Positions 6,491-32,646 of a stretch of DNA of 64,000 nucleotides are shown piece after piece (position 1 is the first letter of the stretch; the number at the start of each line of letters is the position of its first letter). The notes beneath the pieces were generated by a model. That model saw only the letters and a list, made by a program, of their open reading frames with translations, did no database searches and was not told where the DNA came from. The position numbers and the translations under genes were made by a program. This DNA is from Membranipora membranacea (lineage: Eukaryota; Bryozoa; Gymnolaemata; Cheilostomatida; Membraniporidae). The stretch covers positions 21,140,001 through 21,204,000 of the forward strand of contig OU612072.1 in NCBI GenBank assembly GCA_914767715.1. The letters run 5' to 3'.

Positions 6491-6684
6491 CCGAGATGAA
6501 GTTTAATCCAACTTCCTGCATTCCCGTTGCTCCCTCTCACTGGTCTCGCTACAGGTGTGACCGCTGGTGTGACCGGCGGTGTGACCGGTGGATCGACCGG
6601 TAGAGTGACCGGCGGCTTGACCGGCATCGTGCCCGGCGGCTTGACCAGCGGCTGCCCAGTGTGGTGACCACTGACCAAAGTCAA
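6491..6684 (-). CDS. Possible exon with Pro-Val repeat (unproven)
   Basis: On the reverse strand an open frame encodes five-residue repeats of the PVTPP/PVKPP type followed by RGSNGNAGSWIKLHLG, and then a good donor (CG|gtaagtc near 6490). The DNA is a 15-bp tandem repeat (about 6550-6650, GTGACCGGCGGT-like), noticeably richer in GC than its surroundings. It could be a proline-rich linker exon of an unrecognised reverse-strand gene, or just a minisatellite with a chance frame. No partner exons were identified. Confidence 0.25.
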
Positions 6685-6689
6685 TATTT

Positions 6690-9950: not shown

Positions 9951-10038
9951 CTTGCTGACCCTGTTTATCTATGTGACTAACGTCTTACTACTATTATGGA
10001 GCCTGTCAGCGAAAAAGTAAATGAGAGGAAACAAAAAA
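9951..10038 (+). CDS. Exon 1: probable start exon
   Basis: A strong acceptor (tattttatttcag) opens the exon, so a 5' UTR exon probably lies upstream. ATG at 9996 begins MEPVSEKVNERKQK, then the donor gtgagt. It ends in phase 1, which fits exon 2. The choice rests on phase and splice signals only; the peptide has no recognisable motif. Confidence 0.5.
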
Positions 10039-13000
10039 GTGAGTTCTGAAACAAATCTAGAGAGATATGAGTCAGTTAGCATGTTATTGTGTTACTATGT
10101 CAGATGTCTAAATTATACACAAAAAACCTTACGACACTATTGAGACATAATGAGACTTGTCTGGAGTAAATTCTTCTCCTGGATATTAACAAAGCTGATA
10201 GTGCTGGGCCTGAAACTATCAACCTTGTAATTTGTCTAACTATTCACACCATCCCCAGAACAGATTGGATTGATAGCGCTAATTAGCATGCCCATGTTTA
10301 ACTTTTCACTTGGCATGCTTTTTCAAGGTCATGTCTTGTCATGTCATGTCCAGCATGGGCCTAGTTTGCAAATGTAATTAGTGTCTGCACTGAAAAAATC
10401 TATTATGTGGATCTGTGACTGCATGACTGACATAATTTATCGAGTTAATCTAAACCAAACTATGAGGAGCTTTACCATAGAATTGATAGAGAGATGATAC
10501 TGGGAGGATAGTGGCATGAAGAAATGGTTCAAACAGTGATCCTGGTTTCTTTGTTTCAACCTTCGTGTCCGGTTATTGTAAAAACCCAGTCAACTGCCTC
10601 AAACCTCTTTTATAGAGAGAGTTTTTGGTTGACGCGTTACTGATTTTTGATACAGCATGAGTACACAACTCCAAATTGAAATGAGTTTTTTGTTATCACT
10701 TGCGTTGCATCATGAGAAAATTGATTTAATCAAAATCTTCTCCTCATTAACCGATTATGCTTACATGGATGGCATGAGACAACTCACTCATGCCCTGTGT
10801 GTATAATACAGGTAGAATTTGTTAAACATGTAAAAATTTGAACAGCATTTTGATCATAAATGTTGAGCATCTTCACTTAACGTGATATATCGCCTTTTTC
10901 AGTTTCTCAGAAACTATTTGTCCCATCTCAAAAATTCCATCACTGACGCGATGCCAGTAGTCTGACTTATGTTAAATGACGCAAATTTTTTTAAACCGCA
11001 TGTTTCTTACTTGATTAATGGAACATGAACTAAAATTCATTGAAAACATATAGGCAGCAAAGGGCAAAATGATGCAGTAAATTACATTATGCAAAAGCGT
11101 GAGGAAAATCTATGGAGTGTTAAATGCAAAGCACATTGTGTACAACAATTGATCACCTTTTTTGGGTGATTGCTCAGCATTGCTAGAGAAATGTTTATGG
11201 TCATAACTTCTCAACTATTGAATGTATCATCAAACGCCAATGACAAAAACCTCGGAAATACTCTCTAGCTTAATGGAAGCTAATGTGTATAACATGTTCT
11301 TTAACCTATTTTCAGCTTTTTGGCTGGAGAGGAGTGCATGTTTTGGACCAAATAAAGCTGGTTTAGCCACAAAAATCCAAATATCTCAAGATGTAAAGCC
11401 ATAATCAACAATCACTTCAATCAAAACCTAGACCATCTCCTGCTGTTCATCATGCTGATAACAAATTTTACTGACATCTTACTGAATTGCTGAATTTTGG
11501 CTCGACAATTTTGAACTAAATTAGTTAAAATTTGATTAATTATTTGTTACAGTTGTGACAACGAGGATCTGTAATGTGGTAAGATTATTGATGGAAGTGA
11601 CAGTAAAAGACCAAAATGGTATAATAAGTTGGAAATTTCAGTTTCTGCATTATTTGGGTCGCATGTAATGTGGGGTCAGAAATGGCCCTATTACTATTGC
11701 AAAAATAAATTTCAAGTCTCAAAGACAGGAGGCCTAAAATCATAAAGTTTCACTAAAATGTCACTCCGCTAGTTAGTGCCATGGCTCCTCTATATGGTGA
11801 AAACATAAACTAATCAAATACCTCAAAAACAAGGCACAGAGTGCTCAATTTAAAAAGGGCACTTTTTGCCCCAAAATAAACTTCCAGATTCCAGAGGTCA
11901 CTGCGACTCAACGTCAATATTTAGGAGGTTTCAGCTGTGAAAATAACTATAAGACATGATCTCCCTTACAATATTAAAAAAGTTGAAAAAAAGCAATATA
12001 TCACGTAATAGTTATCCCTTGATTATAGAGGTTTATTCATGACCATTTCTATTTTGTTTCATCTTATTACAGGATACTGGGTAGCTTAGGAGGAGCAGGG
12101 TGACAGTAACTGGGATGATCCTGATGTCCGGAAACAAACCTGGACACGATTACTAGGAATCTGTAGAAAGCTGACTCAAGTAGAGCTGGAGAGTGAGACA
12201 GCTTCAGCTGGTCAGATAGCTTTATACTTTATTGATGATGTACCTGCAGTGTTATCTATAAGGCTATCTAAATCAGTGAAATGGCTGATACTTAAACAAA
12301 TAAAACAAAGTAGCCTTAAAAGCCTAAGGTTAGTAAGCTCAGTTATTGATAAGAATTACTTTAATTTGAGATCTAATTTTGATCCAAAATAATCTCTCAC
12401 ATATTCCCCCTTCAGAATAATGCTGACTTTACTGTTTAAATCAGTACCAAGCTTGCATGCAGAGTTCTCCAAGGGTAGGAAAATTGATGTGAGGTTATAG
12501 TGTAGGCTCTAATGCGATTGACATACTTGAAGTATGTATATCTGTATTGGTATGTTATAGGTTATCAGAGATGACATCACTGAAGCGTCTATATGTTAGC
12601 TTGTATGAAGGTGATGAGCTGAATCAGTGTTTATCCACACTAACTGCAGATCTAGTATCTCTGACCCTGAGGAACTGTTATCTGATTAAGATGCCTGACA
12701 GGTAAATATATCATTAATATAAGCAGGATGTTAGATTTCCATGTCATCTCATTATATACTAATGACTATAAATATTATATAGTGCAGACCATCTGTAACC
12801 TCCTATTAAACTTACTATGGTACATATTCTGTGTGGGCTATTTAAGTTGTCTAAAGCTGCGTTTACACGTCCGACAAATCGGCTAATAATAACAACTCTG
12901 ACACAAATCATGAATCCGCTCTATGATCGTTGTCTGTCAACATGTCAACGATACACTATTTACACACTGTTCGGTGGGGGGGGGAGGGAACAAAGCTTGT

Positions 13001-16000
13001 CAACTCTTGCATGCTCAACTGTCGAGCAGCCGATATTAAATATTGTCTTCTCTTGCAATCGAGAAGATAACTCCTTTACCACTCTAATCATTTTGTATAG
13101 GAATGTATACAAATTGTTTAGTGTGATGAAGGAGTTATCTTCTCGATCGAAAGAGAAGACAATATTTAATATCGGCTGCTCGACAGTCGAGCATGCAAGA
13201 GTTGACAAGCTTTGTTCCCTCCCCCCCCCCCCCACCGAACAAAGCTTGTCAAGACAGGCTAACACTGTTCATGCCTAACCGATTTCAACACAAACTTCCA
13301 ACCCAACTTGTCTCTGATTGGCTAGTGAGACCACTAGAATCACTGCTGCGCTGTTATTGGCTGAACCATTCATAATCGTTAACATTCGTCTTTCACTTGT
13401 GACATTGTCACAAGTGAATGATTTTGAACAATACAAATTTAAACAGTGATTAAAACACAGAATAACTGTTTACACGGTCAGTCAAATCTGTGACCTGTGT
13501 CGGAGTTGTTATTTTAGCCGATTTGTCGCACGTGTAAACGCAGCTTTAATGTTGATTTTTTAATCTTGCATGTGATCTTTGTATCGAAAGTGAATGAAGT
13601 GTTTGGTCAATCAAGGGAGACAACCCTGAACTCTATAAAGTTATAGTTTGGTGTAAATATGGACAATTTCTAAAATTTCTCAGCTACTTGCTAAACAAAT
13701 TCCAGATTTGAAGTCCTCATACTAGTGATGGCAAATTGTCAGATTTTGGCGAGACAGGGCGAGTCCGAGACCAAGGAGTAAAAGAGAGGAGTGGCATCTA
13801 AGCTTTGTTTACAATGAGGTGTAATGGCACTTCCGGTTCTTCATGGAACCACGGGAGCAAAGAAATTTGCTAATTTTCCCACTTGAGAAATATTGGCTGA
13901 TATCTCCCCAAATATGATTGATGAGCTAATAAATACATTGACAATCCATTAGAGATATGTAAATGAGCAGAATTATCTATCTAGATGTCATGATTGAGCT
14001 CTAATAAGGCTAAACATGATTATAGATGGCGGCCATTATGTAAATATTTACGATATGATAATAAGTGTTAACCATTCAGTAAATACCTCCACACAAGCTC
14101 TGATCTTATGATAAGATGATACAAATAAATATTCTGCTTGATCCAAGCCTTCAATCACTTAATTTGGCACTGTTGGTGTTGAGAAAACTGTACATTAGTA
14201 CACCATGATACCTTAATTCAGTGTTTTTGCTATGCTCAAATATTCCTCACATCATGCTGTAATGTCCAAATTTTGTTCTCACCCTGACCTTTACATATTA
14301 GTCTCAGTAAAAAGACCAGTGAGGGTCCTCTGTGAGCTCCCCAAACCTAATTTTAAAGCATTGTAACTTTGCTAAAAAATGAGTCAGATCCAGTAGAGTT
14401 AAAATAATTGGCCAATTCTGATTATGACATCATATGGCGCAAAATTTATACTGTGTTTATATATACGTTGTAAGGAGTTGTGCCCACTATTAACTATAGC
14501 AGCAGAGGCAACATAGGGTAACTGAAATGCTTAGTTTTCACTCCTCTCTTTTACTCCTTGCCGAGACAGCAAGAAAATTCGGAACGAGACCGAGACATAT
14601 ACAATGCCGATAAAACTTTCTTCAGATATCACAATTTAAAAGAATGGTTGATATTCATTCACTATCACTAGTGCAATCAGCTTATGGTACATTTGATTCA
14701 AGTTGTAACTTATGAGCTATAGCAGTAAGGATCAAGGATTGATTGCATTATAGAAGGCCACACGCTCGTGCAGATTTCCACTAATTCATGCAAATTAAAT
14801 GTTGTATGAATATCAGCCTGCCACACATGATTGTCATTGCCCGAATTCATACTCATGATTTTTGGGTGTCATCCTACTGTAATCCTCCTCAGCCAATCTA
14901 AAACATAGGCCTATAGTGATAACTAAATAAAATGGTTAAACCAAGGAGATGCTGTTTCTTCTTGTTCATTATACCAACCAGTCCAGTGACTCAGCTTCTG
15001 TATTTATGCTTAGGCTTAACTATCTTCTCATATTTATAGAATTCGATACCCCATTAGTCATTGTATCCCTTCTCCCTCTTGCCCCAGGTCCAAATCAGTG
15101 AGAAAGCTCCACATTGATCATCCATTCCATCTTTTTAACAGAAGTTGTTGACATAGATATGACCTTGACTTATCAATCAAAACAAACAGCCAATCCATCA
15201 AATCTGACAGCCAATCAGATAACATTTGCATTAAATAATTGCAGCAAAAGCATGACTAATAACTATCATTCCATTATACCATAGTCAGAATTTCATGTCA
15301 CAACATATAAAAACCCTGGTGTAGTGGGTAAGAGCGTGGACTGCTGATCACTAGGTTCGAGTCTGGGCGAAGGCAATTTTTTGACTAGCTACTACCATTT
15401 ACAATGCTAGTAGTCCCGACCTGTAGTAAGAGTTGTCTGTCTCTCGAGATACTGTCTCGAGGAGACAAGTCCAGCGAGACCGGGAATTGTCCTGTCTCGT
15501 TGCCATCACTACCTCATACTTAGTTCCATACAATAACTGCCATTCAAATGCTGCAATGCCAAAAAATTTCTCAGTCCTATTTTTTATACCCTATTTAAGG
15601 TAAGAGTGAAGTGCTAATAAATAACTAAACATAGGAGATATCAACCGTAATTCAAGCAAGTGTCCACCAACTGTCCACATAGCATAGGACAACTACAACG
15701 AATAGGACGAAAGTTCATGATCCCTTTTGCCTTCAGCGCAAAGCCTAAATGCAGGCGAATTGGATCATGCTTGATCTAGAGATTAGTAGTGTTGCTGATA
15801 TATTTGCAAATCAACCAACCAGAATCTTCTTTACAGTTACATTTGCCTATTTGGCCGGTCACCCTGACGATATTACTATTTTATATCTTTACCAAAGTCT
15901 TAAATTCCCATTTATCTTTTTCCAGTGTCAATGTCATTGTTAGAAATTTTATTGAATGAAAAGTCAGTTTTTGTACTTACTTGTTCATTCTTTTGCAAAA

Positions 16001-19000
16001 TGAATGGGTATGGGATACAATCATCGATAGGAGCAGCCTAATTAGCAATTTTCAAATTCAAAATCCAGAGAGTTATGAGCGACAAACCTGGATTATGGAC
16101 AGAAAATCAATGATAGCATCATCGGTTCCACACCTTCTTCACGTAGCCCCACAAATAACTGCCTCACTTCAGCTGTATATAGTGTCCTGTCTAGGTTTAT
16201 TATTAAGTCTATGTGAGGATTAGATGGTGAATGGCTGACATGAGACAATTACTTACTTAATTTGTGTATCTGAAATAAATAAAACAATAAATATATAAAA
16301 ATGTACTCCATTTATTCCATACTATCAGTTACGACGATTTTCAACGCTGTATTCTGTTCCCTGGGAGGTCTTCACCTCATTACCGGGGTATTTGTCTGTT
16401 TGTGAAGTTTTTGAGTTTCTAATGATGTCACGTCAAATGCTGCCATCAGTCAGCGGATCAATTAAGACATTTTGCATTGCATTACTCAGTTTCTTGAGGG
16501 TTTATTACCCCATGACTTGTGTTTTTGTCTGTTTGCTAAGCATTTGAGCTTTTCTTGATCTCATGCCAAATGCTGCCATAGCTCGGCAGCAGCCAATTAA
16601 AAACCTTCATATTCTTGCTCACCATGCTTGAAAACCCCTAAAAACCTAAATACATTGAATTCCAGCATGTTTAAAATTTTGACAAAAATAAGCCAATGTG
16701 TTACAAATTAGATAAGCTGACCCATATAACCAAATCGAGCGACTCTTTTTTTTAATCCGAATTCAATACTGTAACAATTTATTTTCGAGTTGCTCTCTCT
16801 TGAAAAATGGATATACCCAGACTGAACGGTAATATGCAAAAGTTTTTATGCATGGCGCCGCTGGGAAATCTTTGATAGCTATACAAACTTTGTTTGTTTT
16901 TGTACATCATTGAAATTTGCAAATCACCAAAACATCACAGCCTTAATTAATTTCTAGGCGATCATTATTTATGTATTTTTGTTGTTTAATCAGCCAAAGC
17001 CCCTTATTTAACTCTGTAAGACGAATTACCAAGTTTGGTCCATTTTCCTGCATTCAGGGTTGCTCTCCTATGAGTTCAACTTTAATACAAGAGAATAATG
17101 GATCAAACTTGATGTTAGAATACACTACATTTTAGGGAGTTCCTGTGAGGCGAAACCCATTTTCTTTTCTCCAGCATTACTAAGATGTCCTCACTGAAAG
17201 AGCTTGACTTGCACGGTAGCAATCTAAGTAGAGATATACAGCTGAGTCAGACATTGTCAACACTCACTAATCTGGAGATACTGCACCTTGCCGGCTGTGA
17301 GCTGACTAGTATCCTTGACAGGTAATGACACCAATTGGCCTAAACCTCAGTATATTCATCTTCACCTACTGTTGTCATAATCCAGGTCAAGGTACATGAA
17401 AATTTATCTTCAACAAACCAACATGAATATAATTATTAAATTGATTGGGAGTCGTGTCATCACTTAAAACTGTCAAATGATTTCTCAGGGTCCTCTAATT
17501 TTGAGAACTAGCCATGCGTTCAATTGCCCGACAAATAAAAAGTGTTTCTAAATTTTTGTCGAAGACAGTCATCGTATATGCTGAAAATTATTTAGGTTTT
17601 TTTATTTCCCTGTTTTAGTGTTGGGTAGTGAATGGTAAACTGCAACAGTTTTTTTGCATTGCTCGGGCTAACTGTAGATGTCATGATAGAGTCTGACTTC
17701 TTTCCTGATGATATTACTGGTTGTTGGCGTTGTGTTAGATAGCTGTAGCATACATCCACTTGATTGGTCTTTATTAGTTTGTTTTTGAGTACTGTTGAGG
17801 ATATCGTAATAACGGTGCTTTAAAATCAATCAGGATGGATTTTAAACATCCCCTGGGTTTAGCATCTAGATCTTGTGTGACTGCGCCAAGAGTAAGCAGT
17901 TGAACATCCTCTGTATATCGGCTTAGGAGATATGGTTAGGATCTTTGATAAACAGATCTAAATGTTTAGGCTGAAATCTCCCGAGGCATTCGAATATGTA
18001 GAAGAAAGTGATGTTAAGCACACAGCTTTTACTAAATTACACGTCATGATGACTTCGAAACATGAAATAAAATGGGAGTTGCCCCATCTCTAAACGTAGT
18101 TTGACAACTTCCATGTTGTGAACGACATTAAAAGCAATGGAATGAATGTGTCTCAGTGTCATCCTGATGAAAAGAAACTAGGTCCAATGTTTGGTGGGGC
18201 AAGCAACCCTATGGATTGGTCGGAGTTTGGCTCTCTTGCATTCAACTGGAATTTCCGATGTAGATTGCATCAAAATTTAATAGTCATTGAGAGGCAAGCA
18301 AACATCTTCTTCATCCTCCACTGGGATCCATGTCTGGAAGTCTTCAGAAGATGTTGATTTCTCAACATCCAACATATACATGCGATGGGATTTTTCCCAG
18401 AGGCTCTAAATGCATATCATACTCCAGTATTCGAACAGATGGTAGAGGCAACGTCCTGAGATTTTGAGTTTCTAAACTCCTCTATGCTATGGCGTATTAT
18501 TCAATGAGTCATAAGCAACAGCGATATGTGGGCTGGTTGCTAAATTTTAGTATAGGTTTAAATACTGTACTCAATGGTTAAACTGGCAAACAGACAACAA
18601 TTGTAGATAGCTCTGTGAGTTCATGCTGTCACTCCGAGCGCCCACTCAACTCCAGGTAGCCCTCCCAAACACAAAGACCATTGGTCAGTGTCAATATTGT
18701 TTCTCCTTGAAGCTTACTGATGAGGTTATAATAAAATAAATGAGATCCAAATTGACAGAGGTAATAGAGCCATCGCAGTTTGCTTACAAGACACACATTG
18801 GGACAGTCGACGCCTCGATCAAACAGCTTGATGATTTCACATCAGAGCTTGACAACCATAATGTAAAAGTGGCGCATTGGACTTTTCAGAGGCCTGCAAT
18901 CGACTGCAACCTTCAACATCTTATTATCAATGTCGAATTCAGATTTCACCACTCTCTGTTATGAACAAATTTCAATGTTTTGTTGGTACCTTGCAGAATT

Positions 19001-22000
19001 TCAAAGATGGTATCACTGATGGAGCTGAATGTCAACAACAACAATCTGAGTACAGATGATCAGTTGAGTGATACGCTATCAGGACTTACAAGACTAGAGG
19101 AACTGGATATGAGTGATTGTCATCTGGTCGAGTTACCTTCAGGGTATGTTCAGTTTGTTTGGTGGATCATGCTATTGAAATAACACATCGCAAACTATAT
19201 CGCATGTATGTGTGTATGTGTTTTGATTTTCAAATTGTTGGAATTGTGCTCACCCACAAGTTAGAAGTGTCAGAATCAATCTGAAAGGTAAACACTGGCT
19301 ACCACAATGTAATGCAATCTGAATGCCTTTCAGTTCTCAATGGAAATTGTTTTCAAGAATCATCTCACATCAATCTCTGGTACATTTTATTAGGAATCAA
19401 TCTCAATTTGGAAAACTCAATGTTTAGCCCACTGTCAAGAAAATGGTTATATCTCTTCCAGAGATTGATTGAATGTGTTGAAATTTTTAAAACTATGTCA
19501 CATTCAAAACATTCATGGAATTTGAAAATGCCGAAAGACGGCGACATAATGTGGAGTCGATATACTAGATATCAGAGTGTTTACCATCATAAAGGTAAAT
19601 TTATCTCCAATGAGTAGGGCAGCTGCCATTCGGTTTTGTAATATCATAACTGGCTGGTAGTAGAATTGCTGATATTTAATCAATGAAAATTGCCTCCGTT
19701 CAGAAGTTATACTGTAGTATCGTCCAGCAAAGTAAAATTACAAATTATAAATTACCACCCAATCATAAAGCTGTAAGTGTTGTCAGAAAATCAGGCTCAG
19801 GCTCAGTGCAAACAAAATCAAGGATTTGTCAAAATATATTTAGACTTCAGTGACGAAAGAATGGATGGAACAGTAGTATCAAACCTTTCACACCAAGAGA
19901 TCAAAATTTAATCCCTGGGTTGACTTGATCACATAGTATAATCATTAAAGTTTGAAAAGTTTGCAAAATTTGACAGGTGTAAGATTAACACCTGAGCAGC
20001 AAGCATTGAAGTTATTATCCTTTAAAATGTGATCTGGAGTTAAACTCGGGATGATGTATTCACAGTTTTTACTAAATTACACATGATGACTTCGAAACGT
20101 CAAATAATATGGGAGTTGCCCCATCTCTAAACGTAGTTTGACAACTTCCATGTTCCGAATGAGGTTGAAAGCAATGAAATGATTTTTTTATGAGTCTCAG
20201 TGTCATCATAATAAAAAGAAACTAGGGCCAATGTAAGACAGTTATCAAATTGTTGGTATTTGATTATAATTGTACTAAATGACATTGAGGTTGCTGCCAT
20301 CCTCGTAATACCTGATGGTCGCCTGAAAATTGCTGTTCTGTTTTCAATTGTCCGCAGTAAATCACTATCTACAATTAATTTGTTTCACTCATCGAAGGAC
20401 TCAGAAAGTGAAATAAAATAAGGGGGCGGCATGGTCAGATTAGTCCAGGACTAGTATGGCGACCACCCGATTAGCTGGAAAACAAAGGCTACTGTCCCGA
20501 GGGCGAGCCCAGACACGCAGCCTACACGACAAGAAGCGATCCACACCCCCACAGCGAGGACGCCAGCCTCCCACGCAAAGCAGAAGGAGCTGCCCCTTCC
20601 TCCCCCAGTAGGTGTGAATTCCACAGGTTATCACCTGTGGTTAACAGTGACCTCTCCCCTCTACAGTTGTTGGCTCTCTTTGGGGCAAATTTTTCCTTCG
20701 ACCTAGTGGCTGTAATGGCAGGGGCTCGAATTTCTAACTCCTCATGAAGACGAATATGATTAAAATGTAACAAATAGCGGTATTTAAAAAGCATTTCAAT
20801 GGGCATAATTTGATACTAAGAGAAGAAAGAGGTCACATGACCACGTGGGCTGATTATAAGTATGACACAGAGAGCTGATTTTTGAAGTAAATAGATGTGA
20901 TTAAGATTACAATTTGCGGCATGACCATGAAACTCAATACCATAGATTAAATGTGAATAAAAGAATGTGCAACACAAATTGATCATCGTAGGAATATTGA
21001 AATATGGTCGTACACTACGCATTAAAAACAGGATGTAGTTCAATTTCCGACAAACTTCTAAAATATGGGTTTTAAAAATAATGCTCTCATCCAAGTGAAT
21101 GCGGAAAAATTTGGTGCTATTTTTTGTCTCTAAAGCCTGATTACCAATTTTAATCTGGTACTGTTCGGGATCTAAAATTTGCTTATTTTGGGATTTAAAA
21201 ATTACCTGAATTGTTTTTGTATAGTTTAAAATCAATAAATTACTCAAGCATCATTGTTCAATTTTAAGAACATTTGATTTGAAAATTTCAGGATCATTGG
21301 AAAATATATTTGTGTCGTCGGCAAAGAGAATATATTCAAACATTGGCGCAGATATTACCAAATCATTGATAATTATTAAAAATAAATTTGGACCTAATAC
21401 ACATCCCTGAGGAACTCCTTTATCGACCTTTTTCATTGTACTGGAATGATCATTGATTTTGACAAATCATTTTTTGTTTTCTAAATAAGATTCCAGCAAG
21501 CCACATGCATCATTTGTAAAATTCTAAAATGGCAAATTTTTTGATTAAAATATCATGGAATCCAAACTGGCTGTCAATAAAAATATTAGAATTTTCCAAA
21601 TAAAATCGAAGCTGGATAGCTAATACTTTTTCTGTAACTTTGGATTTTTCAGTTAATATCGATATCGGCTGATAGTTGTTACAGTCAAATTTATCACCTT
21701 TTTTATGCAGTGGTCGTTCTCTGGCAATTTTCTGGCTATCTGGAAATTCTGATGTTGGAACAATAAGATTGATCATGTGGGTCAAGATTGGGCTGATAGC
21801 ATTTTTATTTTCTTTAATGATTTTCATTGAAATCCCATCGTACCCAACTGCTATTTTTGCAGAGGAATTATTTATGACAGTCTCTGTAATGTCGTTTGTA
21901 ATTTCTAAGAAGTCAAAATTGTTAATTCTGTCGTATTTTGATAGGTATGATAACGGGTCAGCTCCACATTCAGGTAATTTAGCTGCCAAGCCAGGACCTA

Positions 22001-25000
22001 CACTCGTAAAAAAATTGTTAAAACATTCATCAATTTCAATTTCAGATGTGTACCTTTGTCCATTTGTTTCAATACGGCTTGGTGATGAAGACTTGTCTGC
22101 TTTTCTGTTTAAAAGCCCATTTCTCATTTTGATTCGATTTTACATTTTCAAATTCAGTTTTGTAAAAGTTCTATTTTTGCATCTTTGATGGTATTACATG
22201 TCAGATTTTTTATCTTAGAATATTTTTGAAGAAGCTTACTGTTGAAAAGCTCATCCCTAAATTTTTGGGCAAGTTTTTCTCGCTGTTGAATCAATTTGAC
22301 GATTCTGAGCGTCATCCAAGGCTTTTTAAAAGTAAATTTTTTGCTTAGCTTTTTAGTTTTAGTTGTGAATGACTCAGCTACAATTTTGTGTAGAGTATTT
22401 TTAAAAATTTCAAAGGCGTCACTTGGATTACTGCCTATTGAGCACTCCCTGTCATACTTCTGGGTCATTAACTTTTTTGTAAAGTGTGTTTGGATCGAGC
22501 TTAGTAATTAAAATTTGGTTAGCCTTGTTTGTCTTCCATGTGTTTGGAAAAGCAATGGAGCTGATAAAGCCTTGTACCCACCAATGTGCTTTTTTAATCT
22601 CAGGAATTTCTTAGATTTTGCACTGGCAATCATTAAAGAATTTGTGGGTACCACAAAATGTAGCACAACATATCGCACGAAAGTAGAATCAATTCTACTT
22701 TCGTGCGAAGGTATTTGTAAACGCACGATCTCTGTGTATTTTGTACCCACCAATCACAGCAATGCACAAGTGGTCGTGTATGATCGCAGATGAGTTACTG
22801 GGACAGTTATGCAGTTGATGGGTACCAGGCCTAACTGGAAAATGGTCAGCTATCATGTCAGTCTTAACTGTACATGACAAAATTTCATTACTGGTGTTGT
22901 TGACCAGAATATGATCTAAAATTCTGTCAATGTGCGGCCGCACCGTGTTGGCGACTCAATAATATTAAAGCAGCCATTCATGCTCATAATTCTCATATAG
23001 TCTAGGGTAAAGTTTTCAGTTTCATTTGAAGGTTATGAGTCAAAATTTTGATCACCAACAACTAAAGAGTTGATAGGGAGTGAAGGCAGCAGCGCCTCCC
23101 AGTCCACCAGGATATCCGCCGGCCCCACCGAAGGGGTGCGATAGACTGCCAGCACAGAGCAGACTGGGCGGCAAGAACAAATCATACGAACCACCATAGC
23201 CTCCGCTCCAGACAACCGAACATTTGTCACACTAGCCACAAACTCCTCTCATACATACATAGCAATTCACCTCCAGCGCCATAAAATCGAGATCTACAAA
23301 ACATTTTATAGCCATATAGTGAAAACTTTTCTAAACATTTATTTTGTGAAAACCAAGTCTCTGAAATAACAATACATGAAAAATGAACATTGAGTTGAGC
23401 TAGCAGTACTTCAAACAAAGGCATTTTGTTGATTAGACTACGCATATTGATGTCTAAAATTGTATAGGATCTGGTGCTAAAATTTTTAATAACGGTATTC
23501 ACAGATCCTTGGCTAAGATTTTGAACATGATTAAAAAAAGTCAATGATTTGGTGATCCGTTGGCTTAGCCATCCTGTTTTGGTGTTGTTACTTGGTGCTA
23601 ATTTGTTTCACCCATTTAGCATAGTCACTGATTACTTAAGTTGATTTCCTCTGGTAGATAATTTATCATGCTTTATAACTTTTTCATTGGATGCTCCCCA
23701 ACTTACCCCAGTCCGTGACTACGATTATACTTCTACCTAGATTGAGTTTTATGCAGTTTGCTGTCTTGAGAAGTTTTCCCTTTTCCCTTTACTGGATATC
23801 CGGCTAGCTCGCCCGATCTCCTACCCAGGAGAGAATCCCAGGTAGAGAGGTTCCAAGGTGAAACAATATTGACCCTGGCTGATAGTCTTTGTGTTTGGAG
23901 GGGCAAGCGACCCTTGTGATTGGTCGGATTTGCGCTTCCTTGCATTTATCTGGAACGTAGATCACATCAAACTTAATATGTTATTGAGAGACAAGCAAAC
24001 ATCTTCTTCACTGAGACCTATGGCAGAACTCCCCCTACAATTATTTTCAGTGAATACAGCCATAGAATGTAGCGCAACAAACAAGTTATAATTGTGGTAA
24101 ATTTATATATATTATATAAAAATAAAAGGGTCATCCCATGCTTCCTCCTCACGGTTTTTAATCTGGCCTCAATAAAGTTTGAACTCTGGCCTCTGGTGCT
24201 GAGATCAACCGCTCAGCCACGCTTGGCCGCTGAAGCTCGCAAAGCTCAGTGTGAAATACTCAAGACGTTTAAATTTAATGATGTAGTGGGTGTAAGTAGT
24301 AATATATAAAAAAGTGGGTTATACCCATCCACAACCTTGCTTCTTTTGGTCTCCACCGGGATTTGAACCTGGACCACTCACTGTGATCGAGCACGCTAGC
24401 CACTTGGCTACGCCGTCCCGCTGAAGCTTTAGATTTTCTTTGATTTATATTTGAGATATGTGGGTAAAGTAAGCATACCCTCATCTGGTTTTACTGCGCA
24501 TATGTGGTAGGACATAGGACTGTGTTTCAGCCGTTTCTTCTATTTTTTTCCAAAACACTTTTTGAAAAAGTGATAAGAGGCACTGGATATGGGTTTTATA
24601 TACACATACTGCAGTTTTGTGGATTATATCCTGCTCAGATATCAAAAAATCATAAATTAACACTGCTACTCCTCGCAACAAATAACATGTGCTACTAAAG
24701 TCTGTATATTAATTAGTGAATCTATTGAAGTAAAACTGCTATCACCATCAATTAAATTGGACACATATTTTGTTGAATCTGGTTTTTATTTTAAAACAGA
24801 TCAAATGATCAAAGCTCTGCAGAAAATTTACAATACCAATTGCCATCCTCCCCCTATCAATATTCTGTGCATGATGTGTGGGCAAGATTGCAGTCATCCC
24901 GTTAATCCGAATAGGGATAAATTATTTCATAGTAGACCTGTAGCAACCATAAATGCAACATAACAATAGGTAGTCCGACGAAAGCAACTAATAGCTAACT

Positions 25001-28000
25001 TTCAGTTTCATGATATCTCTTCGGGGCTTCAATTTTAATGTTTACAGTTCATGAGAAAGCTTAGGAATGTTCTAAACCGCAAAATTTACACCTCCGAGTG
25101 TACACAATAGAGAGCTGGGGCTGTTTTTAGGGGACAAAAATATTACATTAGGAGAAAACTATCATATGAAATGGGAGAACCCCTACCATTGTAATGGAAA
25201 ATCCAGGTCACATGATATTGTGTACAATGCTAACAGTGTATTAGTAAACAGTGTAACATATTTGTGTGGAATGTGGATGCTGTCGGTAACAGAGAGCAGA
25301 CTCACAGAATTGTAATCTTTACTAGATCTCAGAAGAGGAAAAGTAATGATGACATTTTTATAATGATTATGAAAAACATAAAGCAGTCAGCTGGTCTATC
25401 CCCGAATTTCTCCGGGATATATAAGTCCCGTTAACTGCTGCCTCAAGAGAGCCCTCTGATTTCTTATATTCACCTTCAATGCGGCCATACCGTTCTCAAT
25501 CGAATTGTTCACTTCCACAGTGATTGTGATTTATACGGGCGCCATATTTTTTTGGAGGATAATTCAAGGTGATTTGCCCGTTGGGTTCAGTTACAGTTTT
25601 CAAATATTGGACACTATTGTGCCTATTTTCTTTCTGGTAAAGGTAGTTCCCAGTGAGGGGTGAAGTAGGTTGGTAAATTTCCGCCGGCTATTTGATGATA
25701 TTGTCTTCTCGTTTTCACCGATTTAATTTCTCATCAGGTGAAATAAACGTTGAGGTGCCATTATTTGTGTCTCAATCTCCCCAACAACACCTTCATTGGG
25801 GCCGATAGACATAGCTTCAGAAAATAAAGGCATTGGTTATGGTGAAATATATTGTATATATTATTGTGGTATTTTATTTGTGTCAAAATCACAGATGATG
25901 CACCATTTAACTACATATTTCAAGTGAGCCTACAGGCGATTCAAATTTTAATTTCATTTTGACATTTTTATGAATGTGACTGATGGGAAGGGGTTTGCAC
26001 AGAACTCTCATTTAAGACAGCTCTGAAAAAGATGAAAATACAATCCGTTTCACTCATAATTGCCTAGCAATAATCCCCTTCACATTATTAGTTTATTTTA
26101 ACATCGACGACTTACCTAGTGGTACATTGATCGACATTTATGCTGTGGAATGCTCAAATATATTGGCTCCCAGTTGCAGATAAATTCATTGGATGCCACA
26201 TATACTGTTGAACAAATAGCTGAACTGATCTTGGTATTTGGAGGGCAACAAATTTGACCAAAATGAAATCAAAATAAGATAAATAATCATAATTATCTGA
26301 TTTGTATGATATACACATAAATATCTCATCTTATTCAGTATAAGAACCATGAGGAGACTGAAACAGCTGACGTTGCGCGATGATAACATCAAACAGTTAC
26401 CTGAATGGATCGGTGAACTAGTCTCTCTAACTTATCTGAACCTTGATAAAAACTCTGATCTCATCCGATTACATTCCAGTATTAGTTCGCTGAATCTCTC
26501 CAAATTCAGCTGTAAGTGCAACAAGCTAATAGAGCCACCCTTTGCTGTGTGTCAAGGAGGTTGGAGCGACATAAAACACTTCTACACAGACATGGAAAGT
26601 GGAAAAGAAGTAATCTCTCTATCACCTATTGTCCTCATTGGTAGAAAAGAGGCAGGGAAGTCTTCTCTTCTAAGTGTCATGAAGCATAAGTTCAAAGCTC
26701 GAAGTCCACATGATGCAAGCGTTGAAAAAACAAAGGTTTTTGGTTTTGAGAAGGTACAGATTCAAGGCCCTGATTCAGAGAAAAGTGATGTCGAGGTTAT
26801 TGACTTTGGAGGTGACGAAATTTACCATCACGGCTACCACCTGACAATGGGTGGAGACTGCATACCAATAGTCGTGGTGAATATGTCAGAATTCGAAGAA
26901 ATAGCCAAAAAGCGAGGACCACGTGAAGCCACGAGGGAAGTCGCTTTCAATTGGGTCGCACACCTCGGAACAGCAGTTCAAAAGATCCAAGAGCCCCTCA
27001 TAGTTCTCACCCACCATGATGAATATAGAACTAAGTTAGACCTGTATGAAAAACTAGCTGGTGACTTCACTCGCACTCTACAAGATTTGACTGATGACCT
27101 TCTAAATGAAAACAGTCAAATAGAAAGGCTTGCTGTTCATTCTGACGGGGATCATGTTTCATCTGTGTTCAGCCAGGAAAATTTGTTCTCAGTAGGCTTT
27201 TCTCACGATGAAGTCTATTCATCAGTATTCCAGAGGCTAGAGAGACACCTCTACAACAGAGTAGAGGGTTCAAAATGCTCTATTCCCAGGGATTGGCTTT
27301 TTCCCTTCACCAAGAATAATGACAGCTATCTCAAATATGACCTGATTTCTCCTTCTCTGAAGCACCCTCAGACTGTTTTTGACTTCATGAAGCGATCTGG
27401 TCAGATATTGTGGTACCCAGATTCCTCTAACCCTAGCCTCGCAAATACTGTGTTCCACAAAATACCAGTTTTAACAGAGCTCATAGGATCATTGTATGGT
27501 CACACCATGTCTCCTAATATCGTCATACAGCAATCAGCAGATGGAAATATGACTTCAGGACCCAGCAGCTATCAAAGAAATGGTATCATGAGCAAAGCTG
27601 ACCTTCATTCCCGCATTTCTGACCTATCCTCCAAAATACGATCTGATATCGCTATTGCTCTTTTGGTAAAATTCAAACTTCTGTTTGGCCCAACAGTTAT
27701 CAACAATCAGGATGAATGCTACCTGATGCCATACTTCATGCCTGAACATTCATTATTTCATCATAGAGCTGAGATTCAGCTATTTGCATCAATGAACTTT
27801 ATCGGATTGAAAGCACCTGACTATGCATTTCATCAGTTAACAGTTTCATTTCTCGAAAATATGGATGGAAGCTATCAAATTTTCCCCTATGGGAATGGAG
27901 CAGCTGCAAAGCTGCAAGCACAAACCAGATCTGGCAATGAGAAGAGGGAGCAGTTTGATGTTCATTTCATACATGAGAGGGATGCGCAAAGGGCAATCAT

Positions 28001-31000
28001 CAGAGTTGACGGATGTGCAACCACTATATCTGAATGTTGGGCAAAGTTCTCCACCCTCCTCAAAGTGTTATCAGGGAAAGCAAAATCAACATGGCCTGCC
28101 ACAAAGATAGATTATGACATTCCTTGCCCCCACTGCCTCATTCTTGGTAGGCCAAATCCAGCACTGTTAAAGTTCCAGACGGTAACAGCTCATCCACAAA
28201 GACTCTCTACAGAGACTGCTGAATGTGGCGATGAAAGGGATGTACCAGCTTTGCTCAGAGTACCATGTGAGTTCTTCATTTTTTTGCAAAGCTTCTTCGT
28301 TTCAACAACACTCATCTTTGTTGGATATCTGTGTACAACTAGCACTCACTTTTCTAATTCATGAAATACATGTTTTGGATATATCCTCAGTACTTATCTT
28401 GTCTGCAGTAGTTTGTCATCTTGATACAAAAAATAGAGGTAGTGATTAATGACCTGATGTGTATTCTAGGTACTTACCCAGGAGAGGAGGGGATCAGATT
28501 ACTCACAGACTATATCAATAAGAAGGGGCTGAATGAGGTGACAGCAATAACACAGATTGTTTTTGAGAGAGAAAAGGAGATCGATATGCATCCTGTCTTT
28601 CAAACATCATTGTACAGAACATCCCTAATGGACAAGGTAATTAGCAGCTAGAATTCAAGGAAAGTACCAGAAATTTATCAAAATAAGGAAAATAATTTTG
28701 GTATGATGCAGGAAATGTTTTGTATTTGACACCTATCTCATTTTTTTTGACAAAATATTAGTTGGCGGTGAAAGATGTTTCCTTTTTTAGATGTATGTCC
28801 CTTTAACTCATGCGGGGTGTATAAATATCAAAGATTTTGATGAGGATTGATTAATAAGCGCATATTATTGAACCATCGTTCTTCTCAGGATTGACGTCAA
28901 TTTAAGTATCTCAATAAGACTGCAAATATGTTTATGTGCACTTGCCTTTACCACGCATAGAGTGATCAGTTGCATACAATGAATTCTTTATTCAAAATCT
29001 AGTGGTAGTAACATAAGTTGCAGTTATCTATTTGTTGCCTTTACTTGCAGGTTTATGTGATGACTGCGACACGAGGAAGAGCTCTGATAATCAACAATAA
29101 AACAGATCGAGAAGGTTCTCAGAATGACTATGCTAACATAAAGAGGATGTTAGAGCGATTCGGTTTTGTCATAAGTGATTTGTCTAAAGACAAAGAATGG
29201 CATGCAAAGGTACTTATACCATTGTTTATATTTGGCTTTCATATTTCAGGCTTTGAGCCTCTCTTGTTAGACATTCTTGGATGGTTATGCCATTAAAAAT
29301 CATACGATTGCTGAAATTTGAAAAATACCTGATGATCAACGTTACTTCCGATCGAATTTTACTAACTTTCTTTTCTGAAGGAGCTGATAAAGACAATCCA
29401 CAGTGAGACTCAGTATGTGGATAGAAGAACTCGTACATCTGTACATGCTAATCTGGGAATGTTTGTACTGGTGCTGATGAGTCATGGAGGAAGTGGTACC
29501 ATCTCTGTTGGTAACGAGATGATCAGATTGGTGGATATCTACAGACTTCTCTCACCTCAGAACTTTCAAGCTATGAGAGGAAAACCAAAGATGATTATAC
29601 TACAATCATGTTCAGGAGGTCATATTCTTATGTTTTTTTCTGTACAACTATGTAATGAACAGTCACTTGTTTTGAAAATCAGATGCATCCTTAGCTTATT
29701 TCTCTTACCAATACTGAACCATAAAAATCTCTTTTCCAAACGCAAAATGCATTTGCAATATAATCTTCTTGTGCATGCTCAGCCACCATATTACATATTA
29801 ATATGATTTGTATATGCTCAATCTACTCCCTTCAGCAAATATCATGAAAGTGGATCCTATTGTTACACTGAGTGAAGGATCAGCAACCAAGAGAAGAAGA
29901 AGTAAGTGATCAACTCACTATATAAACAAACTTCAGTTAAACACCTGCAAAAGGCAAATCTTTGTTAACTCGGTTTATGAAAAAAGTGTACAATAATCCA
30001 GATTTGGCAAACTTTTTGAGCCATTTCTAATCTTGAAACATGAGAACTTTTCCATTGTCATGTTACATCTGGTGAATCAAGGATTACAATAAACATCTTA
30101 TCAACGATCTTATATACCTCTGGGAATGAAAACATCTGCATGATTTTTTTTAGAAAGTGTTGGAAGTGGTTTGACCTCCTGTGTCAGTAGCTATTTTTTG
30201 ACATATTTAATTCATCATAAATCTCATCGTTGAAACCTATGGACCCATCTATCTATCTATCCATCTATAGACTATATGTTTAGAACTCTCCAACAGCTCT
30301 GCCCTCTTGCTATCCAGAATGGGTTCTGGTTCTCACACTCTCTCAAGTTCAGATATCTCTTATTGCCAGATGTTTGTTTCGTTGACAGAGAAAATGTGCA
30401 ATTAACCTAAATTGTTCTCTTCTTCCTATTTTTAAATAATTGCTCACTAAAACTATTTTACCCGATTTTCAGTACAACTACCTCAGGGCATGGCAGCTGA
30501 TCCTGCTCCTACCAATCCTAGAGATATACCGAGAGAAGATAGCCACTTATGTATGGATGATCTGATTGTCCTCCACCCAAGTTTCCCAGGTGAGAAGACA
30601 TTGAACGCTATTCATGCAGCGATTAGCTAATTATTGCATTCAACAGAAAAACCATAGTGATATCAATGCCTAATTTTTCACTGCCCATATAAATTACAGG
30701 AATAAACTGTTTATTTGCGTGGCTGATTTTTGTGTGATATCAGGTGTTTCCTAATAAACATAAACTCAAACACCCCAAAGGTGAGCACATACCTAAGTGC
30801 ATAGCATACCCTTTATTTAAAGTGAAGGATGAAATTCCTACTATAAATAAGCAAGCCGTTTCCCCTATAATAGTTATTGAGAAATTTTTGAAAAGTTTCA
30901 TCCATTCATTTTAGGCCAATTATATCGAATCAGCATTTTCATCAAATGTTTTTATCCTTGCTCTTTTACCCTTTGCCCAGAGTATAAAGCCTTCAGAGGT

Positions 31001-32646
31001 CAAAAATACATTCAGTGTTCATCAGAGCTTTCGTAGCAACATTCTATCAACAGGCCGGAAGTAAACATGTCGAAGAACTCAGTAAACTGGTAAGTGCTTC
31101 ACCAAACTCTGATGACTCATCGACAAAATTTGACTCACTTGATTTGACTCACTAGAATAATTTGATTTACACTTCAATGTAAAGTAATATGGTAAGAAAA
31201 TCAGCTGCTCATGTTTTTCAAAGGTCATTAAATTTACAGTGATATACGAAACAAATTATACACTCTCATATTGATAGCTTTACAAAAGATAAACATGTCA
31301 ATACATTGAATTTAATCTTCAACTAACGCTTACTTTAAATTCTGAGGTTACATCTGATTGTAAAGTTTTTCCGTCGTCGAGATAAGGCATGGTCTCAAAT
31401 TTAGGATAACCATCTTGATCCTCTTTTTGAAGCAGATCAAAAATAATTAAATCATGGAAAAACCAGGGCAAGGGGATTTCAGATAGACTGATTCCTGCCG
31501 GTGTCTAATACATTTTTGACAAACACTTGCTCCATTTTGTAAAGTATTTCAATCTTTGACATAAGACATATCGTCAATACCAATCATGCTCCTCTCTTTG
31601 AACTTATCGAAATAACCAAAATATTACCATTTGAAGAAAAGGACAAGGGAGTGTCAGCAAGACTCCCTGCTGCTGGTGTCTAATGCCTGATATTAATCTG
31701 AACCAGTCAATCAGTTTAATTTTCCTTATTGTTTAGATCCAATCAGTTGTGAGAAACTCAGCACCTGCTGAAGGAAGACCTGAACGTCAGCTACCTGTCA
31801 CCATCAGTACATTCACTAATGATAGGAAGCTCTATCTATCACCAGGAGTTAATATGAGAACTACTCATCCAGATGAGCTGGTCAATCCTGTATCACCGAA
31901 TCCTGCTAAGAGTGAGGTGGTGTTTCAAGGTCAGTCAGGTTCTTCAATGTTTGTAGAAGTTTATAAATAATATCCCACACGCCCACAACATGTGTCTTTT
32001 GTTTTTCCCCATTTTCTAATTACCAAGTAAATTGGAAATAAATCGATGCCAAGTTACAAGGATGGCATCAGCTTTCCATTGTGAGCTTAAGTAGCGCTTT
32101 GTGGGTGACCAAAACCTAAAGCTAATTCATGAAACTTAGTACACTAAAAACTTGTTTCTTGATACATCTATGTGATTTTCACTGAAGTGATACTGTCCTT
32201 TTCGGTCCTGCTGGTTATGCCACTTGCATCAAGGTCAAGCAATAGAAGGTTATGTATCACTACAGTTGGGGTTGATATTTGTTGATATAATCGAATAATG
32301 CGGCATGTTAGTTTACATTACTCAAAACTTTATGATACAGAAAGAGTGTGGTATCAAATCCCGGCCATACGTAAATTACTTAGTCAACTATTTTTTTCAT
32401 TTTGGAACTACCAAGCGATTAGAGCATTACACTTTTGCAACCACAGAAAAAGCATACAAGTCTTATAATGTGTCAAACATTTAATAATACGGTTATCAAG
32501 AGATGTTAGGTTTGATTAATTTTTTTTTTAAATCGCAAGGCTTAATCAAACATTGGTAATATAGTTATTCAATTTATTTTTTTTTCACAGGCCGAAATAG
32601 TCGTGGGGATCTTAATTTCGTCGTGCAGAAATCAGACAACTATTAG
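9951..32646 (+). CDS. LRR-Roc-COR-caspase fusion gene (14 exons)
   Basis: Proposed exons: 9951-10038 (ATG at 9996), 12073-12328, 12561-12701, 17175-17321, 18997-19143, 26339-28266, 28470-28636, 29051-29209, 29381-29618, 29836-29901, 30473-30589, 30981-31089, 31737-31929, 32591-32646 (stop TAG). All junctions have GT/AG ends and matching phase except that exon 12 is one base short. The summed length is about 1,255 codons if that base is counted. Domain order: unknown N-terminus, LRRs, Roc GTPase (P-loop GRKEAGKSS, DFGG, THHD), COR-like region, a CPHC-containing linker, then a caspase with large- and small-subunit parts. By family knowledge, Roc-COR is a GTP-regulated dimerisation module and caspases are Cys proteases of cell death, so a plausible role is ligand-triggered caspase activation in the cytosol (inference). 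Possible lesions: in-frame TAG at 12087-12089 and the exon 12 shift; it could be a pseudogene, an alternative-splicing case or an assembly error. Confidence 0.8.
10039..12072. other. Intron 1, nothing recognised
   Basis: AT-rich intron without an identifiable repeat or coding exon. Confidence 0.5.
12073..12328 (+). CDS. Exon 2: N-terminal region, contains in-frame TAG
   Basis: A good acceptor (cttattacag) precedes 12073. Joined in phase to exon 1 it reads RYWVA, a TAG at 12087-12089, then EEQGDSNWDDPDVRKQTW and a helix-rich stretch with QIALYFIDDVPAVLSIRL. It ends in phase 2 at AG|gttagt. The region after the stop is open and continues smoothly into the LRR exons, so the frame is right. A minor acceptor just after the stop (cttag at 12089) avoids the stop but does not fit the exon 1 phase. 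Domain identity is unknown; it is probably an LRR cap or adaptor region. Confidence 0.55.
12561..12701 (+). CDS. Exon 3: leucine-rich repeat exon
   Basis: A 141-base exon, phase 2 at both ends. It encodes LSEMTSLKRLYVSLYEGDEL, then LSTLTADLVSLTLRNCYL and IKMPDR. This is an LRR pair (LxxLxLxxC/N pattern), with the same plan as exons 4 and 5. Confidence 0.75.
12854..13546. mobile_element. TA-flanked inverted-repeat MITE with inner hairpin
   Basis: The terminal repeats read AAGCTGCGTTTACACG on the left and its complement on the right, about 50 bases with few mismatches, flanked by TA on both sides, as in Tc1/mariner-type insertion. Inside is a second long inverted repeat (about 12969-13076 and 13130-13240) carrying a poly-G/poly-C tract. 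The 153- and 101-codon frames here are mirror products of the hairpin, not genes. It lies in intron 3 of the caspase fusion gene. Confidence 0.8.
13772..14560. mobile_element. Nested TIR element inside the hAT-like element
   Basis: Terminal repeats CAAGGAGTAAAAGAGAGGAG and complement, flanked by CCGAGAC on both sides (13765-13771 and 14561-14567). Its position inside the host element shows the order of insertion. It has no coding frame. Confidence 0.8.
15305..15490 (+). mobile_element. tRNA-derived SINE-like sequence
   Basis: It contains an A-box-like TGGTGTAGTGGG and a B-box AGGTTCGAGTC at normal tRNA spacing, but no proper cloverleaf arms. It is most likely a SINE head or decayed tRNA copy within the hAT-like element. 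Confidence 0.5.
15520..17174. other. Intron 3 remainder, weak duplicated segment
   Basis: No gene is seen. Around 16390-16450 and 16520-16580 two stretches resemble each other (gtctgtttg ... caaatgctgccat), an old degenerate duplication. The rest is AT-rich. Confidence 0.4.
17175..17321 (+). CDS. Exon 4: leucine-rich repeat exon
   Basis: A 147-base exon, phase 2 at both ends. It encodes ITKMSSLKELDLHGSNLS and then LSTLTNLEILHLAGCELT, classic LRR consensus LxxLxLxxNxL / LxxLxLxxCxL. Equal length and phase to exon 5 indicate repeat growth by exon duplication. Confidence 0.8.
18000..18330 (+). repeat. Dispersed repeat, intact copy A
   Basis: The same sequence as at 20050-20240 plus 23885-24010 (shared stretches such as gggagttgccccatctctaa and ggggcaagc...attggtcgga). 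This copy is uninterrupted and so defines the family. No open frame is conserved between copies, so it is probably non-coding or long dead. Confidence 0.7.
18630..18964 (+). mobile_element. LINE reverse-transcriptase fragment
   Basis: Forward frames read VIEPSQFAYKTHIGTVDASI and then KQLDDFTSELDNH. A frame shift leads into MDFSEACNRLQPS, the degraded equivalent of the FxDFSKAFDRL palm motif. It ends just before caspase-fusion exon 5. It is dead and truncated on both sides. Confidence 0.65.
18997..19143 (+). CDS. Exon 5: leucine-rich repeat exon
   Basis: A 147-base exon, phase 2 at both ends. It encodes ISKMVSLMELNVNNNNLS and LSGLTRLEELDMSDCHLVEL. The acceptor (ccttgcag) sits only about 30 bases after a LINE fragment, so the intron has been invaded right up to the splice region. 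Confidence 0.8.
20241..23884 (-). mobile_element. Decayed LINE (CR1/Jockey-class), reverse strand
   Basis: Read downward from 23544: endonuclease start YTILDINMRSLINKM and IVISETWFS; then SLVVGDQNFDS; then ADHFPV, degraded endonuclease C-terminus near 22860; KKPWMTLRIVKLIQQREKLA; the RT domain with SAKIAVGYDGISMKIIKENK; GVPQGCVLGPNLFLIIINDL; the catalytic box YILFADDTNIF (about 21340-21308); and the C-terminal LLTTGDNLWNS near 20620. Stops and shifts are frequent. It lies in intron 5 of the caspase fusion gene, opposite in strand, and splits a dispersed repeat. Confidence 0.85.
22635..22757. mobile_element. Small palindromic insertion within the LINE
   Basis: The ends are similar inverted copies (gtgggtaccacaaaat and attttgtacccac). 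The centre is a perfect 16-base palindrome arm pair separated by CA at 22674-22707. No target duplication was established. Confidence 0.5.
24140..24432 (-). mobile_element. Pair of tRNA-derived SINE sequences
   Basis: Two reverse-strand tRNA-like heads. One (about 24424-24340) has A box TAGCCAAGTGGC and B box GGTTCAAATCC. The other (about 24232-24150) has TGGCTGAGCGG and AGTTCAAAC. Both start after a shared agcttcagcgg. Cloverleaf pairing is incomplete, so they are SINE heads or old tRNA copies rather than working tRNAs. Confidence 0.55.
24440..26338. other. Intron 5 remainder, nothing recognised
   Basis: AT-rich intron sequence without recognisable repeats or exons up to exon 6. Confidence 0.5.
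26339..28266 (+). CDS. Exon 6: last LRR, Roc GTPase and COR-like region
   Basis: A 1,928-base exon from acceptor cttattcag to donor CCAT|gtgagt. From the internal ATG at 26349: residues 1-65 LRR (LKQLTLRDDNIKQLP and so on); 94-107 IVLIGRKEAGKSSL, the Roc P-loop; VIDFGGDEIYHH, switch II/G3; LIVLTHHDEY, G4 of THxD type; then a COR-type segment with GQILWYPD, NTVFHKIPVLTELIGSLY and LVKFKLLFGPTV, YLMPYFMPE. Near the end, IPCPHCLILGRPNP plus a later Cys pair may bind metal. These elements in this order define ROCO proteins, GTPases regulated by dimerisation through COR. The intact 640-codon frame argues for constraint until recently. Confidence 0.9.
28470..28636 (+). CDS. Exon 7: linker between COR and caspase
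   Basis: Enters in phase 1 and leaves in phase 0. It encodes GEEGIRLLTDYINKKGLNEV, then TAITQIVFEREKEIDMHPVF. The piece is mostly helical by appearance and may be the prodomain or a short oligomerisation segment before the protease. No death-domain or CARD signature is clear. Confidence 0.7.
29051..29209 (+). CDS. Exon 8: caspase large subunit, N-terminal part
   Basis: 159 bases, phase 0 at both ends. It encodes RGRALIINNKTDREGSQNDY, then ANIKRMLERFGFVISDLSKD. The RGxALIINN start, the following R-x-GS-x-xD stretch (the Arg contributes to the P1 Asp pocket in known caspases) and the LxxxGF motif are diagnostic of caspase p20. Confidence 0.85.
29381..29618 (+). CDS. Exon 9: caspase catalytic exon (His and Cys)
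   Basis: It encodes LGMFVLVLMSHGGSGTISV and GKPKMIILQSCSG. The catalytic His codon is at 29483-29485 (SHG motif) and the catalytic Cys codon at 29609-29611. The usual pentapeptide QACxG reads QSCSG here, an Ala-to-Ser change next to the nucleophile. The exon ends in phase 1 and the donor GGAG|gtcata is weak. Confidence 0.9.
29836..29901 (+). CDS. Exon 10: caspase inter-subunit linker
   Basis: 66 bases, phase 1 at both ends, encoding NIMKVDPIVTLSEGSATKRRR. In caspases the linker between large and small subunits is cut at Asp; the single Asp in DPIV is a candidate site (inference). The basic RRR end is unusual. Confidence 0.7.
30473..30589 (+). CDS. Exon 11: start of caspase small subunit
   Basis: 117 bases, phase 1 at both ends. 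It encodes LPQGMAADPAPTNPRDIPRE, then MDDLIVLHPSFPG. The latter corresponds to the first strand of p10 (DxLxxxxTxPG in known caspases), leading into the substrate loop of exon 12. MAADPAP may hold a second processing Asp. Confidence 0.75.
30981..31089 (+). CDS. Exon 12: caspase p10 substrate loop, one base short
   Basis: From the best acceptor (ctttgcccag at 30980), in phase, it reads EYKAFRGQK, which fits the substrate loop L3 (GYxSWR in caspase-3). The continuing helix, SVFIRAFVATFYQQAGS then KHVEELSKL, is in a different frame. The switch falls at the AAAAA run at 31002-31006; one more base there would join both halves, and the total gene length would then be a multiple of three. A rescue acceptor at 31015 (TTCAG|TG) restores frame without the base but removes loop L3 with its substrate-binding Arg. 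Confidence 0.6.
31737..31929 (+). CDS. Exon 13: caspase C-terminal strand
   Basis: Enters in phase 0 and leaves in phase 1. It encodes IQSVVRNSAPAEGRPERQLP, then VTISTFTNDRKLYLSPG. This matches the last p10 strand of caspases (RQxPxxxSTLxKxLYF). It is followed by a tail, DELVNPVSPNPAKSEVVFQ, longer than in ordinary caspases. Confidence 0.8.
32591..32646 (+). CDS. Exon 14: terminal exon
   Basis: After acceptor ttttttcacag, in phase, it encodes RNSRGDLNFVVQKSDNY and a TAG stop. A likely 3' UTR follows. The variant poly(A) hexamer AATATA near 32752 is the only candidate signal seen. Confidence 0.65.

Follow-up and report, generated by a model that had tools for sequence, protein, structure and literature searches.

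The closest described counterparts of the locus studied here are bacterial. According to the available part of Kaur et al. 2021 (PMC8195603), bacterial LRR-AP-GTPase(Roc)-COR proteins carry at their C terminus any of at least 24 domains, of which caspase is one. These proteins resemble the bryozoan genes described below in their domain order and in having a caspase among their effectors, as well as in being present as several paralogs per genome with a proposed counter-invader role (PMC8195603). An earlier note on this DNA had presented the direct joining of an LRR-Roc-COR protein to a C-terminal caspase as lacking a well-described example, but bacterial proteins of this kind are in print in the same paper, and thus the architecture is not unprecedented. 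For animals, no LRR-Roc-COR-caspase example was found in open-licence PubMed Central. The bacterial and bryozoan proteins also differ in several respects. The bacterial LRR-Roc-COR proteins have varied effectors, whereas the bryozoan family carries a caspase in the 129 paired loci among the matches listed, and each of its sampled unpaired loci carries a caspase-type domain. Moreover, unlike the bacterial LRR-Roc-COR-caspase proteins, the bryozoan genes are animal genes with introns and encode an animal-type caspase. No relative was confirmed when contigs of prokaryotes and viruses were scanned with two short patterns, and one database hit (P0006), labelled internalin A, showed 25% identity (E 2.3e-5).

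Among animal ROCO proteins, DAPK and LRRK share the Roc-COR core with the bryozoan family, but their partner domain is a kinase instead of a caspase; DAPK is termed apoptotic in the available text of PMC8195603. Trichoplax, with at least 17 ROCO genes, is a further animal that has several of them, joined to various partners such as CARD, TIR, and death domains; no caspase is among the partners named in the available part of the report on them (PMC4104024). Likewise, the accessible portion of a survey of Aplysia ROCO proteins names no caspase partner (PMC9334734), and the words caspase and ROCO are absent from the accessible text of another bryozoan genome paper (PMC13326412). Brown algal LRR-ROCO proteins have the same LRR-ROC-COR order, with LRR exons that shuffle and a proposed function as immune receptors, but they appear to be without a caspase, a word absent from the main text as available (PMC11378527). 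The same source gives up to forty ROCO domain combinations in animals, among which a caspase could be included.

Only the general logic, i.e., a repeat-domain sensor, an NTPase switch, and a caspase output, is shared with the NLR inflammasome and the Apaf-1 apoptosome. In both of these systems a STAND ATPase sensor works with caspases, whereas the bryozoan proteins have a Roc-type GTPase rather than a STAND ATPase, and the protease is on the same chain.

One open frame from LRRs to caspase

We analyzed a window of 64,000 nucleotides from Membranipora membranacea (contig OU612072.1, positions 21,140,001 to 21,204,000), whose own numbering is used below. On its plus strand, seven exons join into a single open frame of 975 residues that extends from 12561 to 29618 with no stop and with AG/GT borders at every junction. 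These are three LRR exons (12561-12701, 141 nt; 17175-17321 and 18997-19143, 147 nt each), a long exon with the last LRRs, the Roc GTPase, and COR (26339-28266), a linker exon ahead of the caspase (28470-28636), and two exons between which the caspase large subunit is divided, namely exon a (29051-29209, with RGRALIINN) and exon b (29381-29618), the latter with the catalytic His and Cys. The order along the frame is therefore LRRs, Roc GTPase, COR, linker, and caspase large subunit, and the open reading frame around the long exon (26310-28364) covers the end of the LRR domain, Roc, and the COR-like region. The claim of the earlier note that LRR, Roc, a COR-like region, and a caspase lie in one frame thus held up, and so did the motifs it had listed (GRKEAGKSS, DFGG, and THHD in 26339-28266; SHG and QSCSG in 29381-29618). 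All three LRR exons have lengths that are multiples of 3 and are flanked by phase 2 on both sides, so that their duplication or skipping would keep the frame. LRR exons 2 and 3 share 52% identity over 46 aa, and the open reading frame containing the third matches Pfam LRR_1 (E 1.7e-5).

Other elements were also seen in the window. Reverse-transcriptase-like open reading frames, of LINE type by eye, lie on the minus strand at 20816-23607, inside the intron that separates the Roc exon from LRR exon 3, and frames resembling the endonuclease and reverse transcriptase of another retroelement were noted by eye on the plus strand at 62265-63999. An inverted, near-palindromic repeat with poly-G and poly-C that is alike on both strands occupies 12960-13280; a stretch similar to it (85%) is present in the family locus L042, and the repeat is possibly a foldback element.

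Of the domains that had been read from the letters, profile searches recovered Roc (Pfam E 1.2e-5, 26 bits, with the cut-off at 27) and Peptidase_C14 (E 1.1e-5 for exon a and 2e-9 for exon b) in the window pieces, while COR went undetected by Pfam in the window copy, though this copy can be aligned with COR-positive family members. In eight aligned members, Pfam reported Roc at E <= 0.01 in all eight, COR-B in three, and COR-A in one; in L050, COR-A reached E 2.8e-5, which is under the cut-off. The features by which ROCO proteins are recognized are present, i.e., a Roc domain with P-loop, DxGG, and THxD-type motif and a COR directly behind it, and in two overlapping alignments the Roc signature residues do not vary in any of the 8 rows. 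A profile of Roc-COR exons matches LRRK1 and many LRR proteins, and also the chains 6hlu and 3dpu (both titled Rab family protein) and 4wnr (Leucine-rich-repeat protein), which represent Roco proteins of bacteria and archaea. No NACHT family was among the Pfam hits of the scanned exons, which have a Roc-type GTPase instead.

The caspase part is likewise recognizable by its catalytic residues. The best PDB matches of the spliced linker and caspase exons (numbered 7-9) are ancestral caspase-6 (E 2.5e-8) and caspase-3, and the His-Cys dyad of the window copy stands in HG and QxC contexts. All 12 complete exons b, that of the window among them, retain His and Cys, and 11 have the Gln preceding the Cys pair, which is Glu in L018. 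The caspase S1 pocket, which accepts Asp in P1, consists of Arg-Gln-Arg; its large-subunit Arg was found in 18 of 22 exons a (absent in L020, L021, L025, and L026), its Gln in 11/12 exons, and its small-subunit Arg in 4/4 paralog exons. No adaptor domain was seen in the exons read, from LRR exon 1 at 12561 onward. For an N-terminal death-fold domain, the single upstream open reading frame tested (12090-12392) gave no notable Pfam hit.

Family size, mosaic copies, and the joint between COR and caspase

Searches of the Membranipora membranacea genome (18 contigs; 339,339,785 bases) returned at least 76 matches for the window's Roc-COR exon, at least 70 and 68 for the C1-type and C3-type Roc-COR exons, and at least 150 for the C9-type caspase exon, together with at least 148 Pfam Roc and 145 Pfam C14 hits; all of these are lower bounds, as the best candidates were scored per query, and the lists overlap. 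From the Pfam Roc hits, the 67 within long open frames entered the merging of loci, and the 81 in short frames, other small GTPase genes among them, were left out. Merging gave at least 183 Roc-COR loci and at least 190 caspase loci. Among the matches listed, 129 of the 183 Roc-COR loci are followed within 6 kb by a caspase locus on their own strand, with gaps from 562 to 3276 and a median of 1323 over these 129 pairs, compared to none upstream on the same strand, none on the opposite strand, and 0.31 expected at random, and thus the two are linked far above chance. As the random expectation ignores block duplication, the comparison demonstrates linkage and not 129 independent cases. In a set of 30 loci that includes the window's own, 22 have exon a downstream of their Roc-COR exon; of the other eight, seven cover the surroundings of a Roc-COR exon's 5' half, and in L038 the caspase hit lies past the stretch.

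The unpaired loci that were sampled also point to a caspase partner. All six taken from the 54 Roc-COR loci left unpaired among the matches listed carry a domain of caspase or caspase-like type. Caspase exons of the ordinary kind are present in L058 (Pfam C14 E 3e-11), whereas in L043, L046, L055, L056, and L057, which sit on contigs C3, C5, and C11, the caspase-like domain is divergent and shows SHG or THG plus QACQ. In L055, the small-subunit part matches Pfam C14 (E 7e-11) and the large part gives nothing, and the large part of L046 reaches E 0.0027, under the cut-off. Two further loci, L025 and L026, were scored as unpaired, yet caspase exons a and b match alongside. Conversely, 61 of the 190 caspase loci had no adjoining Roc-COR hit among the matches listed, and some of these are other caspases (e.g., a full-length match at C4:18.27 Mb).

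Comparison of the window with nine close paralogs in 200-bp steps, in which gapped intron steps and truncated ends lower identity, revealed that five of the nine, all C8 paralogs (L013 and L015-L018), are mosaic, with a similar Roc part and different later COR and caspase parts. As far as about 27.7 kb, L015-L018 are 82-99% identical to the window; identity then drops to 78-79% over one step and to 17-66% past 27.9 kb. For L013 it is 89-98% up to about 28.1 kb and at most 70% past that. No such break was seen in L010, L011, L012, and L014 besides gapped intron steps and locus ends. In the five mosaic loci, dS is 0.13-0.34 in the Roc-COR exon versus 0.8 to saturation in the caspase exons, and together with the identity breaks this indicates that Roc parts resembling one another are joined to later COR and caspase regions that differ. 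The LRR side varies as well: the block around LRR exon 3 occurs twice upstream of the paralog L010 (L053), and L050 (contig 11, 3043900-3053500) has about 74 tandem LRRs in one open frame (1-6927 of that stretch), followed by Roc-COR. Its units of 69 bp and 23 aa have a mean DNA identity of 86%, with variation peaking at unit positions 5, 7, 8, and 9; Tandem Repeats Finder counted 73.6 copies, and 75 are in register, the last being degenerate, in a stretch that starts inside the frame.

The question of one gene or two was examined at the joint between COR and caspase. A motif at the COR end was found automatically in 25 of 29 loci examined, L015-L018 being without it, and right behind it a phase-1 GT donor followed in 23 of these 25, with a donor present on inspection in the two misses (L014 and L027) as well. 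The window's COR exon ends in this conserved donor, and the linker exon starts after a gap of 203 bp. AG and GT border exon a in 22/22 matched loci, and an AG acceptor precedes exon b in 20/20. The linker exon was matched in nine of the 30 loci including the window, its GT donor being present in 9/9 and a clear AG acceptor in five; in L015-L018 the match starts too late to show the acceptor. In the other 13 loci possessing exon a the linker exon was unmatched, its matches being confined to the closest paralogs. Because of the conserved donor and the short gap, a transcript ending after 28266 is unlikely, and these borders also make it unlikely that the COR exon is terminal or that a promoter of its own for the caspase lies within the 203 bp.

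An alternative explanation is that two adjacent genes, an LRR-Roc-COR gene and a caspase gene, were duplicated jointly as a block, which would likewise preserve order and strand. In line with this, no fused protein with a window-type caspase was among 879 database candidates. The database relatives P0001-P0005 cover LRR-Roc-COR only. No intronless copy (retrocopy) that would prove splicing was found in the genome. However, the COR exon ends in a conserved splice donor with the next exon just 203 bp away, phases are compatible over all seven exons, and the mosaic copies break within the COR exon, leaving the joint to the caspase in place. Given the donor, the phases, and the breakpoint positions, we consider two separate genes very improbable. 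At the genomic level, the data thus support the single gene ordered LRR-Roc-COR-caspase that the earlier note had claimed, and a gene family with the same order. We conclude, with a probability of roughly two in three, that the window gene is a member of a large Membranipora membranacea family of predicted single-chain LRR-Roc-COR-caspase proteins.

Selection on the family and state of the window copy

Signs of constraint were observed in the family members compared. Between the window and its nine close paralogs, dN/dS in the Roc-COR exon was 0.34-0.66 in 9/9 pairs, and in the caspase exons it was 0.12-0.48 in pairs with finite, non-zero dS; the linker exon exceeded 1 in two of the five pairs with finite dS, a value drawn from about 35 synonymous sites. 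Stops inside Roc-COR matches were rare among the matches listed (0/76 for the window exon, 4/70 for the C1-type, and 1/68 for the C3-type), and the GTPase signature and caspase dyad are intact in sampled family members.

Beyond the seven-exon frame, further exons with canonical borders continue to a stop at 32646. They comprise an inter-subunit linker exon (29836-29901), with fitting borders and phase and a peptide that is identical in L040 and similar in L039; an exon with the linker end and the start of the small subunit (30473-30589; DDLIVLHPSFP), also fitting in borders and phase and matched in 4/4 paralogs at 50-91% identity; two small-subunit exons (30981-31089 and 31737-31929), both with borders, the second (IQSVVRN) matched in 4/4 paralogs at 64-98% identity; and the last coding exon (32591-32646), which has an acceptor and continues the frame of 31737-31929 up to the stop codon. 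In L042, a stop falls within the stretch matching 31737-31929. The exon 30981-31089 breaks the frame in the window copy and is open in 4/4 paralogs examined, and its length differs from those in L039 and L040 by a number that is not a multiple of 3, so a complete caspase small subunit is not encoded in the window copy as assembled. As this exon is off frame here, unlike in the paralogs, the window copy is probably a decayed family member that no longer makes a complete caspase, although the off-frame exon may instead be an assembly error. We lean toward the window copy being a pseudogene, or a decoy able to dimerize but not to cut, in view of this exon and of the reverse-transcriptase-like frames seen by eye within the largest intron of the gene. 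On the other side are the open frame and intact splice borders upstream of 30981-31089, and a Roc-COR exon that, compared with 9/9 close paralogs, shows more silent than replacement change per site. This reading concerns the window copy alone and is compatible with the family explanation.

Possible function and meaning

The family likely encodes intracellular sensors in which GTPase-controlled dimerization would fire the caspase. Under this model, the LRRs would bind a non-self or damage ligand, and binding would alter the nucleotide state in which the Roc-COR switch is held; dimerization through Roc-COR would then place two caspase domains next to each other, which might process themselves in the linker between the large and small subunits. 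The active caspases would cleave substrates, most likely killing or alarming the cell. LRR growth and the exchange of parts among paralogs could give a changing receptor repertoire. The parts and their conservation come from the genome itself, and every step of the mechanism is our extrapolation from ROCO and caspase biology.

With the same architecture, the family could instead act in telling self from non-self among colonies and not in the sensing of pathogens, as Membranipora membranacea forms colonies (PMC10290214, available part). The many similar, partly mosaic copies would fit allorecognition as well as immunity. However, the ROCO proteins and caspases known so far act inside the cell, and nothing in our data favors colony recognition over pathogen sensing, so we regard this function as unlikely.

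Returning to intracellular sensing, we tentatively hypothesize, as a possibility somewhat short of an even chance, that bryozoans have an inflammasome-like system without NLRs or adaptors, in which well over 100 single-chain LRR-GTPase-caspase receptors form the main intracellular recognition repertoire and gain their diversity from the tandem growth of LRRs, the duplication of LRR exons, and a mosaic swapping of sensor and effector parts. If confirmed, the single-chain proteins would be an animal case, at the scale of a family, of a G-protein switch wired straight to a caspase, and they would let one ask whether ROCO dimerization by itself fires a caspase. They would also tie animal cell-death receptors to bacterial LRR-Roc-COR-effector systems and would suggest an unrecognized, fast-changing receptor repertoire in a little-studied phylum.
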